This document shows, one piece after another, positions 1-6,380 of a stretch of 6,380 nucleotides of DNA. The stretch's first letter is position 1; the number at the start of each line of letters is the position of its first letter. This DNA comes from Gammaproteobacteria bacterium. Lineage in GTDB: Bacteria > Pseudomonadota > Gammaproteobacteria > Chromatiales > Chromatiaceae. The stretch is from NCBI GenBank assembly GCA_019136395.1, contig JAGVUH010000041.1:1-6380 (forward strand), written 5' to 3'. The notes under the pieces were generated by a model. The model saw only the letters and a list, made by a program, of their open reading frames with translations, was not told where the DNA came from and ran no database searches. Made by a program: the position numbers and the translations under genes.

Positions 1-103
1 CGGGATAGGCGCTTGCTCCAGCTCGGATAGGGGGTTTAAAGGCCAGGAGGCACGGCGGCGACCACGGGGCTCGCATTGATAACGGAGCCTGGGACGGCTA
101 GTT

Positions 104-109
104 TATACT
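104..109 (+). promoter_or_regulatory. Possible -10 element upstream of the ABC exporter genes
   Basis: TATACT lies in one of the few AT-rich patches of the leader, about 200 bases before the exporter start. The nearest -35-like hexamer, TTGATA at 76-81, is 22 bases upstream, which is too far for a standard sigma-70 promoter. No good hexamer sits at 16-18 bases. This is a weak candidate based on one motif and local composition. Confidence 0.2.
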
Positions 110-220
110 CCTATCCGCTCGGTTTCCGGTCGGCCCTGGGAGGATTGCGGGGTCTCTCAGGCGGGGGGTCTCGACCCCTAGGGTGCCCTTGTCAAGCCTG
201 CGGGAACGTTTCCCCCGCCT

Positions 221-244
221 CCCCGCCAGACGCCCCCGACCCGG
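221..244 (+). repeat. Intergenic repeat, copy A
   Basis: This copy begins CCCCGCCAGACGCC and ends GACCCGG. It matches 1941-1962 at about 20 of 22 bases, 2066-2090 with one inserted base and few changes, and the reverse complement of 1989-2012. It lies 64 bases upstream of the exporter start and outside any supported gene. Four similar copies in two intergenic spaces suggest a dispersed, REP-like extragenic repeat, although the family is not recognised. Confidence 0.55.
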
Positions 245-307
245 AAATACCGATTGATCGCTCCATGCTGTTGTCAGGCCCATTCCAGCCAGGGACCCCA
301 ATCTTTC

Positions 308-1177
308 ATGCCCGCCCTTAGCGTCCGCCAACTCCGCAAGACTTATCGCAACGGCTTCGAGGCCCTCAAGGGGGTGGACCTGAGCGTCGAGGAGGGCGAC
401 TTCTTCGCCCTGCTGGGCCCCAATGGCGCCGGCAAGTCGACCCTGATCGGCATCCTCCGGGAACCTGAGGCGGTCAAGGCCTGCCTCGGCCTGGTGCCCC
501 AGGAGTTCAACTTCAACATCTTCCTGCCGGTCATCGAGGTGGTCCTGAACCAGGCCGGCTACTATGGCATCCCCCGTCCGGAGGCGCGGGAGCGGGCGGA
601 ATACTACCTGCGCAAGCTGGAGCTCTGGGACCGGCGCGATACCGAGATGCGCCAGCTCTCCGGTGGCCTCAAACGCCGGCTGATGATCGCCCGGGGGTTG
701 ATCCACGGCCCCCGCCTGCTGATCCTCGACGAGCCCACCGCCGGCGTCGACATCGAGATCCGGCGCTCCATGTGGGACTTTCTGCGCGAACTCAACGAGC
801 TGGGCACCACCATCATCCTCACCACCCACTACCTGGAAGAGGCGGAAAACCTCTGCCGCCACATCGCCATCATCAACCGGGGCCGGGTCGCCGAGCGGGA
901 GGGCATGACCACCCTGCTCGGGCGCCTGGAGGCGGAAACCTTCGTCCTCAACCTCAAGCATCCCCTGAGCGAGGCCCCGGACCTGGTTAGCTTTCCCTGC
1001 CTGCTGCTGGACGACCTGAGCCTGGAGGTGGAGATCTCCCGGGGCCAGAGCGTCAACGGCCTGTTCGCCGCCCTCTCCCGCCGGGGCATCGAGGTCGCCA
1101 GCCTGCGCAACAAGCAGAACCGCCTGGAACGACTCTTTCTCGACACCCTCGAACGGCGCGGCGAGGAGGCGGCATGA
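308..1177 (+). CDS. yadG: ABC exporter ATP-binding protein, YadG type, with an internal in-frame deletion
   Basis: This is the nucleotide-binding subunit of an ABC-2 type exporter; it would hydrolyse ATP at the inner membrane together with the downstream permease. The substrate is unknown. Visible motifs are Walker A GPNGAGKS (residues 37-44, K43), Q-loop Q65 in GLVPQEFNF, signature LSGG (117-120), Walker B LLILDEP with D141 and E142, and the switch histidine H174 in LTTHYLEEAE. The C-terminal 100 residues match the YadG tail. As recalled, YadG is about 308 residues and this ORF has 289. The shortfall lies between IGIL (ending at L50) and REPEAVKA, where about 19 residues carrying the conserved strand and turn before the Q-loop are absent. 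Only 22 residues separate K43 from Q65, against about 40 normally. The start at 308 fits the family N-terminus (LSVRQLRKTY), with only a weak AGGGA at 291-295. The stop overlaps the permease start (ATGA). Activity is doubtful if the deletion is real. Confidence 0.88.
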   Translation: MPALSVRQLRKTYRNGFEALKGVDLSVEEGDFFALLGPNGAGKSTLIGILREPEAVKACLGLVPQEFNFNIFLPVIEVVLNQAGYYGIPRPEARERAEYYLRKLELWDRRDTEMRQLSGGLKRRLMIARGLIHGPRLLILDEPTAGVDIEIRRSMWDFLRELNELGTTIILTTHYLEEAENLCRHIAIINRGRVAEREGMTTLLGRLEAETFVLNLKHPLSEAPDLVSFPCLLLDDLSLEVEISRGQSVNGLFAALSRRGIEVASLRNKQNRLERLFLDTLERRGEEAA

Positions 1178-1930
1178 GCCCCGCTCCCCGCTTCCAGGCT
1201 GGCCGGGACCCAGCCCCTCCGGGGGGACCCCGCCCCGCACCCGGCCCCCACCCGGTCATGGGCCGCTGGGCCCGTTACCGGGTCGCCTTCCTGACCATCC
1301 TGAAGAAGGAAATCCTGCGCTTCAGTCGCATCTGGATCCAGACCCTGCTGCCGTCGGTCATCACCACCACCCTGTACTTCGTCATCTTCGGCCGCCTCAT
1401 CGGCGAGCGCATCGGGCCCATGGGCGGTTTCGCCTACCTGACTGCTGGTGGCTCCGGTGCCCAACTGGGTGATCCTCGCCGGCTACGTGGCCGGTGGCGT
1501 GGCGCGGGGCCTGGCGGTGGGCCTGGCGGTGACCCTGGTCGCCGTGGTCTTCACCGACCTCCAGATCCACAGCCTGCTCACCAGCCTGACGGTCTTCACC
1601 CTGACCGCGATCCTCTTCGCCCTCGGCGGCTTCATCAACGCCGTCTATGCCAACAGCTTCGACGACATCTCCATCATCCCCACCTTCGTCCTCACCCCCC
1701 TCACCTACCTGGGGGGCGTCTTCTACTCCATCGACCTGCTGCCGGAATTCTGGCGCTGGCTCTCCCAGGCCAATCCGGTGCTCTACATGGTGAATGCCTT
1801 CCGCTACGGCTTTCTGGGGGTGAGCGACATCGACCTGGGGCTGGCGCTGGCCATCATCCTCGGCTTCATCGTCGCCCTGACCCTCTACAGCCTGCGCCTC
1901 CTGGACCGCGGGGTCGGGATCAAGACCTGA
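1174..1930 (+). pseudogene. yadH: ABC-2 type permease, YadH type, frameshifted by an internal deletion
   Basis: This is the membrane subunit partner of the upstream ATPase. Frame one runs from ATG 1174 through KKEILRFSRIW and the first membrane segment (about 1345-1405) to MGGFAYL, ending at 1440. The family sequence then resumes in the next frame at 1442 with LLVAPVPNWVILAGY and ends at TGA 1928-1930. It carries four more hydrophobic segments and the ABC-2 hallmark TPLTYLGGVFYSI. Against E. coli YadH (about 256 residues) about 35 residues are missing, including membrane segment 2. Restoring 104 bases would give 258 residues from ATG 1258 and repair the frame. ATG 1174 has GAGGAGG at 1163-1169 and overlaps the ATPase stop, but adds a 28-residue Pro-rich extension. 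ATG 1258 matches the usual family N-terminus but has no Shine-Dalgarno. Without repair, frame one reads unrelated sequence to 2148. Either a pseudogene or an assembly error. Confidence 0.85.
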
Positions 1931-1940
1931 GCGGGCCGCC

Positions 1941-1962
1941 CCCCGCCAGAGGCCCCCGAACC
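1941..1962 (+). repeat. Intergenic repeat, copy B
   Basis: It begins CCCCGCCAGAGGCC and ends CGAACC, differing from copy A at two positions. It starts 10 bases after the permease stop. Bases 1940-1950 are perfectly complementary to 2002-2012 (11 pairs), followed by one mismatch and four more pairs, so copies B and D can form a hairpin in the transcript. Confidence 0.5.
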
Positions 1963-1972
1963 AAGGCAAGCA

Positions 1973-1999
1973 GGGAGGGAGGGTCGGAGGGTCGGAGGG
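1973..1999 (+). repeat. G-run array with potential to form a G-quadruplex, including a GGGTCGGA tandem repeat
   Basis: Five GGG tracts occur at 1973-1975, 1977-1979, 1981-1983, 1989-1991 and 1997-1999, separated by A, A, TCGGA and TCGGA. This satisfies the usual intramolecular G-quadruplex pattern with short loops on the coding strand. The unit GGGTCGGA occurs twice in tandem (1981-1988 and 1989-1996). The array sits 43 bases after the permease stop and runs into repeat copy D. Folding itself is inferred. Confidence 0.5.
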
Positions 2000-2012
2000 C
2001 GTCTGGCGGGGG
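1989..2012 (-). repeat. Intergenic repeat, copy D (inverted)
   Basis: On the minus strand this reads CCCCGCCAGACGCC followed by CTCCGACCC, the same unit as copies A, B and C but inverted. Bases 1989-2012 pair with 2065-2088: 15 pairs (one G-T wobble), a two-base internal mismatch, then 7 pairs. The same G-rich arm can instead pair with copy B or with the C-run at 2041-2045. Confidence 0.55.
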
Positions 2013-2045
2013 TGTCAACCGCATGTATGCGGTTGGCAAGCCCCC
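2008..2045. other. Palindromic hairpin between the exporter pair and mrcB
   Basis: The core is a perfect inverted repeat, CAACCGCAT at 2016-2024 and ATGCGGTTG at 2027-2035. It extends outward by T-G, G-C and T-A pairs (2013-2015 with 2036-2038) and, after a two-base bulge, by GGGGG (2008-2012) against CCCCC (2041-2045). No T-run follows, so it is not a standard intrinsic terminator. It could be a transcription-end or processing hairpin, a protein-binding palindrome, or the core of the repeat element around it. Confidence 0.55.
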
Positions 2046-2065
2046 AAGCACGGATTCACGGCGAC

Positions 2066-2090
2066 CCCCGCTAGACGCCACCCGACCCGG
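2066..2090 (+). repeat. Intergenic repeat, copy C
   Basis: It begins CCCCGCTAGACGCC and ends CCCGACCCGG. The last bases extend the match to copy A at 242-244. Together with copy D it closes a roughly 100-base structure (1989-2088) that encloses the palindromic hairpin. Confidence 0.55.
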
Positions 2091-2100
2091 CCCAGGCCCA

Positions 2101-2192
2101 GGGGGATTCACGCTGGGTTATACACTGAGCATCATTTTAAAGCAGTAGAAGAGTTGCCGCCCCAAGCCCCCCATGGGACTATAAGTCATTTT
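2101..2192 (+). promoter_or_regulatory. Probable mrcB promoter region (AT-rich)
   Basis: This is the only clearly AT-rich stretch near mrcB. Candidate -10 elements are TATACA at 2119-2124 and TATAAG at 2180-2185. The second has TTGCCG (2154-2159) upstream, but with a 20-base spacer. Neither gives a textbook sigma-70 promoter, so the region is called by composition and position, and the exact start is not assigned. Confidence 0.3.
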
Positions 2193-2240
2193 TCGGCCAG
2201 GTAGCCGCCAGGTTGCCCGTCCGCCTGACATTCCAGATCC

Positions 2241-2262
2241 CGGCGAACGATCGCCGTGAGGA
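2241..2262 (+). promoter_or_regulatory. mrcB ribosome binding site next to a small hairpin
   Basis: GTGAGGA at 2256-2262 lies 9 bases before the TTG at 2272 and decides that start. Immediately upstream, CGGCGA (2241-2246) and TCGCCG (2251-2256) form a perfect 6-base-pair stem with an ACGA loop, touching the first base of the Shine-Dalgarno. The stem could modulate ribosome access; this is inference. Confidence 0.45.
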
Positions 2263-2271
2263 TTCAGCCAG

Positions 2272-4710
2272 TTGAGCCGGCCTTATCAAGACCAGGACGA
2301 GGAGGACTACCCCCCCGAGGAGGGGAAACCGCGCCAGCGCCGTGGCTGGGTGTGGCGTGCCCTGCGATTCCTGGGCGGAACGATCATTTTGGCCGGACTG
2401 GCGGGCCTGGTGGCCCTGGTCCTGTATGCCATCCCCCTCGATCGCACCGTGCGGGAGAAGTTCGAGGGCAAGCGCTGGGCCCTGCCCGCGCGAGTCTACG
2501 CCCGCCCCCTGGAACTCTACACCGGCTCCCCCCTGGACCCCGCGGAACTGGTGGCGGAACTCAAGCGGCTGGACTACCGGCCGGTGGCCCAGCCCCTCCG
2601 CCCCGGGACCTATGAACGCGAGGATGGCCACTTCCTCATCCGCACCCGCGCCTTCCAGTTCTGGGACGGGACCGAGCCCGAGCGCTTCATTGATCTCCAG
2701 ATCAGCGACGGCCAGATCGCCAGTCTCACCGACGCCAGCGGCGGCGAGGACCCGGCCCTGGTGCGCCTCGACCCGGTGCTCATCGACAGCATCTACCCCA
2801 GTCACAACGAGGACCGCGTCCTGGTGCGCGCCATGGATCTGCCGCTCCTGCTGGTCGATACCCTCAAGGCGGTGGAAGACCGATCCTTCGGCTCGCATTT
2901 TGGCGTGGACCCTCAGGCGATCCTCCGGGCCTCCATCAAGAATTTCCAGGCCGGGGCAGTGGTGGAGGGTGGCAGCACCCTGACCCAGCAACTGGTGAAG
3001 AACTTCTACCTCTCGGACGAACGTAGCCTGGAACGGAAGCTCAACGAGGCCCTGATGGCCATCCTCCTGGAGTGGCGCTATCCCAAGGACGATATCCTGG
3101 AGGCCTACGCCAACGAGATTTATCTGGGCCAGGACGGCAGCCGCGCCATCCATGGCTTCGGCCTCGCCAGTCGTTTCTACTTCAATCGCGACCTGAGCGA
3201 ACTGGGCATCCCCGAGACCGCCCTGCTCATCGCCCTGATCAAGGGCCCCTCCTACTATGACCCGCGCCGCAACCCGGAACGGGCCCTCGAGCGCCGCAAC
3301 CTGGTTATCGACATCATGGCCGACCAGGGTGTGATCGAGCTGGCCCAGGCCGACAGCGCCAAGGCGGCGCCCCTCGGCGTCGGCGAGAAGGGTGGCCGGC
3401 CGGCGGGTACCTATCCGGCCTTCACCGACCTGGTGCGCCGCCAGCTCAAGCGGGACTACCGGGAGGAGGACCTGCGCTCAGAGGGCCTGATCATCTTCAC
3501 CACCCTCTCCCCCACCATCCAGGGCATCGTCGAGCAGTCGATTCGCGACCGCCTGCCCGATCTGGAAAAGCTGCGCAAATTCAAACCCGGCACCCTGGAA
3601 GGGGCCGCGGTGGTGGTCTCGGCGGCCCAAGGCGAGGTCCTGGCCCTGGCGGGAGGGCGCGAGGCGGGCTACGCCGGCTTCAACCGGGCCCTGGAGGCCA
3701 TCAGGCCCATCGGCTCCCTGGTCAAGCCGATGATCTTCATCGAGGCCCTGAACGAGCCTAAGAAATACAACATCGCCACTCCCTTGCGGGATCAGGGCGT
3801 CAGCCTGAACGCGGGTGATGGCAAGCGCTGGGAGCCCAAGAATTACGATGGTAAGACCCATGGCTCGGTGCCCCTCTACCTGGCCCTGGCCAAGTCCTAC
3901 AACCTGGCGACGGTGAACCTGGGCATGGAACTGGGGCTGGATCGCGTCGCCCGCCGTTTCCAGGAGCTGGGCGTGCAGCGGGATTTCGACAAGGTGCCGG
4001 CCATGCTGCTGGGCTCCATCTCCCTGTCCCCGGTGGAGGTGGCGCAGGTCTACCAGTCCATCGCCGCGGGTGGCTTCCGCGCCCCCCTGCGGGCCATCCG
4101 CGAGGTCCTCAACACCCAGGGCGAGCCCCTGAACCGCTATCCCCTGGCCGTGGAGCCGGCCTCCAGTCCCCAGGCCGCCTATCTCCTCACCTGGGCCATG
4201 CGGGAGGTCATCCAGCAGGGTACCGCCACCTGGCTCAAGGAGCGCCTGCCCAAGGAGCTCACCGTCGCGGGCAAGACCGGTACCACCAACGAACTCCGCG
4301 ACAGTTGGTTCGCCGGCTTCAGCGGCGACAAGGTGATCGTCGCCTGGGTGGGGCGGGACGACAACCAGCCCACCGGGCTGACGGGGGGCACGGGGGCCCT
4401 GCGCGTCTGGGGTGATATCATGGCCAACCTCGACACCCAGCCCCTGCCGGACTATCCACCGGACGGCGTCGAGATGGTCACCGTCGATCGCTACAACGGC
4501 CGCCGCGCCCCCAAGGGTTGCGGCCGGGCCCTGACCATGCCCTTCGACGACGATGCCCTGCCCACCGGCACCTCCGATTGTGGCGCCGCCCCGCCCCCGG
4601 AACCGGCCACCGAGGAGGCCGCCACCGCGGCCCCGCCCCCACCCAAGGAAGAGAAGAAAGCCAGCGAAGGTGGCATCGGGAGCTTCCTGCGAGATTTTCT
4701 AGGTAACTGA
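2272..4710 (+). CDS. mrcB: Penicillin-binding protein 1B, bifunctional peptidoglycan glycosyltransferase/transpeptidase
   Basis: This class A PBP polymerises lipid II into glycan strands and cross-links the peptides on the periplasmic face of the inner membrane. The 812 residues align end to end with E. coli PBP1b. In order: a charged cytoplasmic tail; a transmembrane helix (about 30-54); a UB2H domain (about 72-160), the docking site for the activator in the E. coli enzyme; and the GT51 domain with catalytic E202 in AVEDRSF, then GGSTLTQQLVKN and NEIYLGQ. The transpeptidase follows with S482 and K485 in GSLVKP, S542-Y-N544 and K668-T-G670. The C-terminus is Pro/Ala/Glu-rich and ends GIGSFLRDFLGN, like the E. 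coli tail. TTG 2272 is chosen because it has a well-spaced GTGAGGA and an appropriate N-terminus. All key residues are present and nothing is missing, unlike the flanking genes. The stop overlaps the next start, implying translational coupling. Confidence 0.96.
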   Translation: MSRPYQDQDEEDYPPEEGKPRQRRGWVWRALRFLGGTIILAGLAGLVALVLYAIPLDRTVREKFEGKRWALPARVYARPLELYTGSPLDPAELVAELKRLDYRPVAQPLRPGTYEREDGHFLIRTRAFQFWDGTEPERFIDLQISDGQIASLTDASGGEDPALVRLDPVLIDSIYPSHNEDRVLVRAMDLPLLLVDTLKAVEDRSFGSHFGVDPQAILRASIKNFQAGAVVEGGSTLTQQLVKNFYLSDERSLERKLNEALMAILLEWRYPKDDILEAYANEIYLGQDGSRAIHGFGLASRFYFNRDLSELGIPETALLIALIKGPSYYDPRRNPERALERRNLVIDIMADQGVIELAQADSAKAAPLGVGEKGGRPAGTYPAFTDLVRRQLKRDYREEDLRSEGLIIFTTLSPTIQGIVEQSIRDRLPDLEKLRKFKPGTLEGAAVVVSAAQGEVLALAGGREAGYAGFNRALEAIRPIGSLVKPMIFIEALNEPKKYNIATPLRDQGVSLNAGDGKRWEPKNYDGKTHGSVPLYLALAKSYNLATVNLGMELGLDRVARRFQELGVQRDFDKVPAMLLGSISLSPVEVAQVYQSIAAGGFRAPLRAIREVLNTQGEPLNRYPLAVEPASSPQAAYLLTWAMREVIQQGTATWLKERLPKELTVAGKTGTTNELRDSWFAGFSGDKVIVAWVGRDDNQPTGLTGGTGALRVWGDIMANLDTQPLPDYPPDGVEMVTVDRYNGRRAPKGCGRALTMPFDDDALPTGTSDCGAAPPPEPATEEAATAAPPPPKEEKKASEGGIGSFLRDFLGN

Positions 4711-5708
4711 TGAACAAAGCCCTGATCCTTCTCCTTGCCCTCGGGTTGCTGGCCGGTTGCGCCGGCAAGCCGCGCCAGGGCGGTCCAGCCCCGGTCGAAA
4801 ACGCCCTGAATCCCAAGGTGAAGACCGCCCCGCCCCCCCAGGCACCGGCGGTGGACGTCTATGCCTACCGGGCCCCGAACACGGCCCCGCCCCCGGCCCC
4901 CGCCCCCGAGGCGGCCGAATACGCTCCGGCGCCCCTGACCCCGCCCGTGGCGGAAGGTCCAGGCAGCCCCGGCGGCCGCGGCCCCGCGACCTTGCCTCCC
5001 GACACCGATCCGGGTCTGGCCTCCGCCATTACCTGGACGCCGCCCGCCAGTCCGGCCAGTGCCCCGCGGACCACCCCCGCCCCGGCCTCCACCTCCGTTC
5101 CTGCCCCTACCTCTGGTCCGGCAACGACGCGGACCCAAACTCAGGCCCAGTCGCAGCCTCAGGCCCAGACGTCCGCTTCCCCGTCCACGGCCAATCCACC
5201 TCCCGCCCGGTCCGGCACCCCCAGCGCGGCTCAGTCAACCACGGCGGCCGCGGGTTCAGGCCCGGGACCCACCACGGGGACCAGCGCCCCGACCACCCTC
5301 GCCTCCCTGGCACCCCCCGCGGCGCCCAAGCCGCCGCCCCCGCCCCCCGTGGTCAGGTACACGGCCCCCCCGCCGCCGGCGCCAGAATTACCCGCGGCGG
5401 CCGCCTCCCTGGCCGCCCAGGCGGAGAAGCAACGCCAGCAGGGTGATTATGTCGCCGCCGCCGCGACCCTGGAGCGCGCCATCCGCATCCAACCCCGGGA
5501 GGCCTATCTCTGGAACCGCCTGGCCCGGGTCCGCCTCGACCAGAAGAATTATACCCAGGCCAGCTCCCTGGCCCAGAAGTCCAATGCCTTGTCCAAGGAC
5601 CAGGCCCAGATCAAGGAAGACAACTGGGGCATGATCGCCGCCACCCGCCGCGCCACGGGCGACACCAAGGGCGCCGAGGACGCGGAGGCCAAGGCCGGCA
5701 GCCGGTGA
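4710..5708 (+). CDS. lpoP: TPR-containing outer-membrane lipoprotein, probable LpoP-type activator of PBP1b
   Basis: The signal peptide MNKALILLLALGLLAGC has lipobox LAGC with C17 as the lipidated residue. The next residues, A-G, contain no Asp retention signal, so outer-membrane sorting is expected. Residues from about 24 to 227 form a low-complexity tether rich in Pro, Ala, Thr, Ser and Gln. Residues from about 228 to 332 are helical TPR-like repeats (QRQQGDYVAAAATLERAIRIQP, then WNRLARVRLDQKNYTQASSLAQKS). In Pseudomonas a TPR lipoprotein encoded beside the PBP1b gene, LpoP, activates that synthase in place of the enterobacterial LpoB. The same partner gene, order and architecture support that role here. 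The ATG overlaps the mrcB stop (TGATG) and has AGGT at 4701-4704 as a Shine-Dalgarno inside mrcB, so the two should be made together. The tether length and unbiased reading of the TPR count are uncertain; the activator role is inferred. Confidence 0.82.
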   Translation: MNKALILLLALGLLAGCAGKPRQGGPAPVENALNPKVKTAPPPQAPAVDVYAYRAPNTAPPPAPAPEAAEYAPAPLTPPVAEGPGSPGGRGPATLPPDTDPGLASAITWTPPASPASAPRTTPAPASTSVPAPTSGPATTRTQTQAQSQPQAQTSASPSTANPPPARSGTPSAAQSTTAAAGSGPGPTTGTSAPTTLASLAPPAAPKPPPPPPVVRYTAPPPPAPELPAAAASLAAQAEKQRQQGDYVAAAATLERAIRIQPREAYLWNRLARVRLDQKNYTQASSLAQKSNALSKDQAQIKEDNWGMIAATRRATGDTKGAEDAEAKAGSR

Positions 5709-5751
5709 GGGGTGGTGCTGGCTCCGGCCTGGGTTGCCTGGCGGCGCGGCC

Positions 5752-6380
5752 ATGATCCAGGTCAGCGATATCCTCGGCCCCGAGGGCCTGCTCGCGCAAC
5801 GTCTGCCCGGCTACAACCATCGCCCCCAGCAGACGGCGATGGCGGAAGAGGTGGCCCAGGTCCTGGCCGAGGGTGGCACCCTCATCTGCGAGGCCGGCAC
5901 CGGGACCGGCAAGACTTACGCCTACCTGGTCCCCGCCCTCCTCGCCGGACGCAAGGTCCTGATCTCCACCGGCACCCGCGCCCTCCAGGACCAGCTCTAT
6001 CACCGCGACCTGCCCCTGGTGCGCGAGGCCCTGGACATCCCGGTGCGCATCGCCCTCCTCAAGGGCCGGGGCAACTACCTCTGCCCCTACCGGCTGGAGC
6101 TGGCCCTCGCCGAACACCGGGGCGGTACACGCGAATTATCGCCGAACTACCCCTCCCGGACGAGGCCCCCGTCTGGCCGGCGGTGACCTCCACCAGCGAC
6201 AACTGCCTGCGTCAGGAGTGTCCCGACTGGGATCGCTGCCCCCTGCTCCAGGCCCGCCGCCGGGCTCAGGAGGCGGACCTGGTGGTGGTCAACCACCACC
6301 TGCTGTGCGCGGACATCGCCCTGCGCGACGAGGGCTTCGGCGAGATCCTGCCCGGCGCCGACGCCTTCATCGTCGACGAG
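5752..6380 (+). pseudogene. yoaA: ATP-dependent DNA helicase, YoaA/DinG (XPD-like Fe-S) family, frameshifted and cut by the window edge
   Basis: This superfamily 2 Fe-S helicase class acts in DNA repair and damage tolerance. Frame one (from 5752) shows the family N-terminus, LPGYNHRPQQTAMA, Walker A EAGTGTGKT (K54), the STGTRALQDQLY motif and the first cluster cysteine, C111, in GRGNYLC. After LALAEHRGG (about 6126) this frame loses similarity and stops at 6184-6186. Homology resumes in the frame beginning at 6132 with IAELPLPDEAPVWPAVTSTSDNC. It carries the other three cluster cysteines (codons at 6204, 6219 and 6237) and VVVNHHL, and reaches the D-E of the DEAH box exactly at 6380. The gap corresponds to about 20 missing residues, with a length of 1 modulo 3. 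ATG 5752 is preferred over in-frame TTG 5734; neither has a clear Shine-Dalgarno. The gene lies 43 bases after the lipoprotein and is probably co-transcribed. Pseudogene or assembly fault. Confidence 0.85.

Follow-up and report, generated by a model that had tools for sequence, protein, structure and literature searches.

The three short internal losses in the stretch of DNA analysed here, a contig of 6,380 nucleotides (the window), are very probably artefacts of assembly, in which gaps in coverage were closed without their bases. The organism, a relative of the Chromatiaceae, most likely carries ordinary full-length genes at all three places. The losses lie in the genes of an ABC-2 type transporter ATPase, its permease and a DinG-like helicase, possibly YoaA, and the case for an artefact comes from comparison with relatives, from the selection acting on the flanking pieces, and from the form of the junctions themselves.

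Three internal losses in the window

The first-pass annotation of this DNA had proposed three internal losses from the letters alone, and alignments to the nearest relatives confirm them (Table 1). The nearest named relative is Gammaproteobacteria MAG INTA.CYC.166 (G001), whose contig L001 carries an mrcB 94% identical to that of the window and matches the window DNA with 89-90% identity overall; its helicase gene sits on a separate contig, L081. Next in mrcB identity are G005 (92%; reference locus for the junctions L115), G003 (89%) and G004 (80-85%). The window seems to be an entire contig, since the protein database places its ATPase on a single contig of 6,380 bases. Close ATPase homologues carry names that suggest Chromatiaceae. 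The same junction edges were obtained with G005 and G004 at all three sites, and with G003 at the helicase alone. Two of the sizes first proposed, for the ATPase and the permease, were exact, while the helicase loss, given as roughly 60 bases, is 55. Flanking sequence aligns up to each junction, although at the helicase the left flank has several mismatches near the junction. The position of the ATPase junction may slide by one base.

Table 1. Genes, gene pieces and junctions in the window (all genes on the plus strand)
Feature	Position	Strand	Basis
ABC-2 type transporter ATPase, 289 aa	308..1177	+	PF00005
Junction 1, ATPase, 57 bases missing, in frame	456..457		alignments to L001, G005 (L115), G004
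Permease, 5' piece ending at junction	1174..1440	+	start of PF01061 profile, under cut-off; tblastn
Junction 2, permease, 104 bases missing, frameshift	1440..1441		alignments to L001, G005 (L115), G004
Permease, 3' piece in different frame	1442..1930	+	remainder of PF01061 profile; tblastn
mrcB / PBP1b, 812 aa, intact	2272..4710	+	PF00912, PF14814, PF00905; 94% to L001
TPR lipoprotein, 332 aa, intact	4710..5708	+	PF14559; alignment to L001/L081
DinG-like helicase, 5' piece	5752..6137	+	PF00270; 97% to G001 over 121 aa; homologue names DinG
Junction 3, helicase, 55 bases missing, frameshift	6137..6138		alignments to L081, G005, G003, G004
Helicase, following piece in different frame, ended by contig end	6138..6380	+	tblastn to L081 helicase

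The ATPase lacks 19 residues shortly C-terminal of the Walker A motif, and its homologues are mostly 308-315 aa long (308 aa in G001, against 289 aa in the window). That one loss in three is in frame is the expected share. Between the broken genes, mrcB and the lipoprotein gene were indeed spared, as had been claimed: compared with L001, mrcB differs by a single 3-base indel, and the lipoprotein gene, aligned to L001/L081, stays in frame with several indels in its low-complexity part that total multiples of three. The pattern that this sparing seemed to imply did not hold up, however, since under random placement the chance that none of the three losses falls in these two genes is 0.098, which is within chance and needs no explanation. 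With a coding share of about 89% of the window, the chance that all three fall in coding sequence is 0.71. An open frame of 380 aa on the minus strand (window 98-1240), antisense to the ATPase, is likely a shadow frame of the GC-rich sequence.

The segments are whole in other sequences

The comparison with related genomes showed that the relatives keep all three segments, which supports the artefact explanation that the earlier annotation had placed first. The ATPase and permease segments are present in G001, G005 and G004, and the helicase segment in these three and in G003. The locus set consisted of the window plus 126 loci (127 sequences), some of these loci being one place fetched twice, such as L002/L119, and loci whose match stops short of a site were left out of the counts. 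At the other loci spanning the sites, the segment was kept in 27/27 cases for the ATPase, 21/21 for the permease and 33/34 for the helicase, so that the segments were rightly described as conserved. The exception, L083, is a second and distant helicase of G001 with 32% identity and 14 of the 18 residues.

Protein homologues gave the same picture. Among the best 120 of 7999 ATPase matches, the 19 residues are complete in all 119 others, and the window's own protein is the sole one without them; it is also the only one of these 120 with an internal loss of at least 8 aa. The most window-like ATPase among the rows listed, P0008, shares 264 of 267 aligned residues with that of the window and yet keeps all 19. 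The 35 permease residues are complete in all 113 proteins spanning the site among the best 120 of 8000 (seven do not span it). Nine of these 120 have a loss of at least 8 aa, in every case confined to reference residues 2-27, which belong to an N-terminal leader of variable sequence. For the helicase, the query was the short 5' piece of the window, and full-length relatives fell outside the length range, so fragments were matched: 53 of the best 120 of 1878 span the site and 67 do not, and the 18 residues are complete in 52 of the 53. The one exception, P0260, has 16 of the 18 and a tail that diverges from the family. A near-identical sequence with its segment was thus available for the ATPase (P0008), and only somewhat remoter relatives, such as G001 and G005, for the permease and helicase, where the segments are likewise whole.

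The same short forms, as would be expected of shorter functional variants, were not found in relatives among the listed homologues and the 126 loci. The ATPase junction sequence had no match in viral contigs, nor the permease junction sequence in the 126 loci; a scan of viral contigs with an ATPase homologue returned one distant relative only and was uninformative on gap handling. A hotspot of assembly breaks at the helicase site was rejected, as among 57 short helicase proteins with at most three unaligned end residues only single ones ended at residue 128 (P0241) and at residue 127 (P0320).

Selection on the flanking pieces

Rates of dN/dS were calculated for each piece, with the two sides of a junction kept separate, between the window and G005 and, for reference, between the intact pair G001 and G005 (Table 2). 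In the window, the pieces of the ATPase, the permease 3' part and the helicase gave values of 0-0.21, near those of intact pairs. The slight increase in the broken genes reflects few changes and is roughly equalled by that of intact mrcB, and the high value of the permease 5' piece is, we think, due to its variable leader. The flanks are under about the same purifying selection as in intact relatives, and no sign of decay was seen. With no stops in the pieces and dN/dS like that of intact pairs, an ordinary decaying pseudogene was rejected, in agreement with the initial observation that nothing else in the window is degraded.

Table 2. dN/dS of gene pieces and intact genes
Piece	Window-G005	G001-G005
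ATPase 5' piece	0.027	0.019
ATPase 3' piece	0.137	0.111
Permease 5' piece	0.52	0.31
Permease 3' piece	0.085	0.053
Helicase 5' piece	0.097	0.069
Helicase 3' piece	0.024	0.053
mrcB (intact)	0.112	0.083
Lipoprotein (intact)	0.298	0.359

Junction edges and alternative explanations

Clean flanks and pieces still under selection are also what very recent loss predicts, and the main rival is accordingly that one strain has suffered three real small deletions, by repeat-free end joining or template jumping, before any decay set in. Deletions that are independent of repeats are known in bacteria, which lends this explanation some ground, but we consider it improbable. It calls for three independent events within 6.4 kb with no further lesion, and for short forms that were not seen elsewhere among the listed homologues. 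The edges share 1, 0 and 0 bases, with either G001 or G005 as reference, and no direct repeat was found at any of the three, even though the first 3 kb of the locus in the relative offers 37 direct repeats of at least 7 bases at a spacing of 40-130 bases. Slippage between repeats was rejected for this reason, the repeat-free edges speaking against it. Random blunt deletions of the same lengths would all three share at most one base with a probability of 0.50; the junctions look randomly joined, and this value is compatible with random joining but no proof of it. End joining would also have to proceed where Ku (PF02735) was not found, namely in the four closest relatives G001, G003, G004 and G005, and Ku was not found in G002 either. 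It was present in 3 of the 38 relatives searched, a count that covers relatives alone and for which genome completeness is not given, and its scarcity is only suggestive as an argument against end joining. A burst of blunt, repeat-independent deletions of 55-104 bases in one strain, made by a novel end-joining-like route in the absence of Ku, appears very improbable; if true, such clusters would interest students of bacterial end joining.

A second explanation is that hard GC-rich segments, as the original description suggested, or hairpin-forming ones dropped out during amplification or sequencing, so that the library came to contain products of in vitro deletion. The helicase segment alone leans this way, with a GC content in the relative of 76.4% (86th percentile of the locus, which averages 67.5%) and a fold more stable than that of roughly 80% of random pieces. 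The permease segment runs directly against it, being at 52.9% GC in the 0.3rd percentile, with 98% of 300 random pieces folding more stably, and the ATPase segment is average in both respects (64.9% GC). The fractions of random pieces that fold more stably are 0.58, 0.98 and 0.20 for the 57-, 104- and 55-base segments, respectively. As GC and folding are not consistently extreme, GC-rich dropout fails for the three as a group. Polymerase jumps, moreover, usually leave short shared bases, unlike the overlaps found here, and dropout of this kind is most unlikely as the common cause.

An uncharacterised deletion process, or protein forms that are shortened and still work, is scarcely credible. 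The three losses are alike in order of size within one window, but inspection by eye revealed no common edge motif across the junctions, nor was there a second instance in the sets examined, and together with the repeat-free edges this leaves the suggestion of a new process unsupported. Working short forms are contradicted by the two frameshifts and, for the ATPase, by the removal of a stretch following Walker A that is retained so widely. Relocation of the lost pieces within the contig was rejected as well, there being no exact match on either strand, a weak test given that the relative is about 90% identical; a BLAST comparison of the window with L001 gave no separate match to either of the two segments present on L001.

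How the probable gaps may have been closed

It is the combination of arbitrary lengths, frames and edges with clean bases, all on a single contig, and of a near-identical ATPase that is intact, that gives the three losses the appearance of collapsed assembly gaps. A closed gap should leave a blunt join of arbitrary length and frame, and the overlaps and lengths found agree with this. During the making of the metagenome contig, gaps in sequence coverage would have been closed up without their bases, for example because runs of N in scaffold gaps were stripped or because the unsequenced middles of read pairs were fused end to end. The usual assemblers require overlaps or write N, and a blunt join without N would therefore need an extra processing step of this sort. 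The contig is presumably of short-read metagenome origin: the absence of frameshifts from mrcB and the lipoprotein gene gives its base quality a short-read look, and it counters raw long-read error as a source of the losses. Runs of N occurred in only one of 131 fetched loci and so do not show directly how gaps were treated in the source of the window; the sole run, of 100 N, is at 7730-7829 of L003, a locus of Thiocapsa sp. KS1.

Even where the bases are clean and the neighbouring genes intact, a contig can still hide collapsed blanks that mimic clean gene lesions. A quick filter for such cases would combine a blunt junction, a segment that is whole in near-identical sequences, and unchanged selection on the flanks.

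A repeat in the window

A repeat lies at window positions 138-244 and 1995-2095, and also at about 1935-1960, with arms like GTCTGGCGGGGG and CCCCCGCCAGACGC. Folding was far better than that of shuffled sequences for the copy at 1995-2095 (z -3.7, with 0 of 200 shuffles equal) but not for those at 138-245 and 1930-1962. An exact 18-mer, CCCCCGCCAGACGCCCCC, occurs 4 times in G001, 13 times in G005 and 7 times in G003, with no occurrence of the reversed control, and by exact match it is absent from G004 and G009. The repeat may represent a REP-like element in these genomes.

Comparison with known systems

Several known processes yield lesions that resemble those of the window. Ku/LigD end joining is able to produce blunt joins, as seen here, and differs in that it relies on a protein not detected in the close relatives. 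Spontaneous short deletions in bacteria arise by slippage between direct repeats and remove tens to about 100 bases, a similar size range, whereas the three edges in the window have no direct repeat. No publication on stripped scaffold gaps was found in the literature searched. There is also a likeness with spurious pseudogenes of assembly: Cooley and Wright (2024, PMC11017572) report that assembly errors linked to the assembler, the platform and the coverage account for many apparent pseudogenes. There, too, genes only seem to be broken, but the cases in the accessible part of that report concern genome assemblies with frameshifts and internal stop codons, whereas the window has three internal blanks of 55-104 bases.
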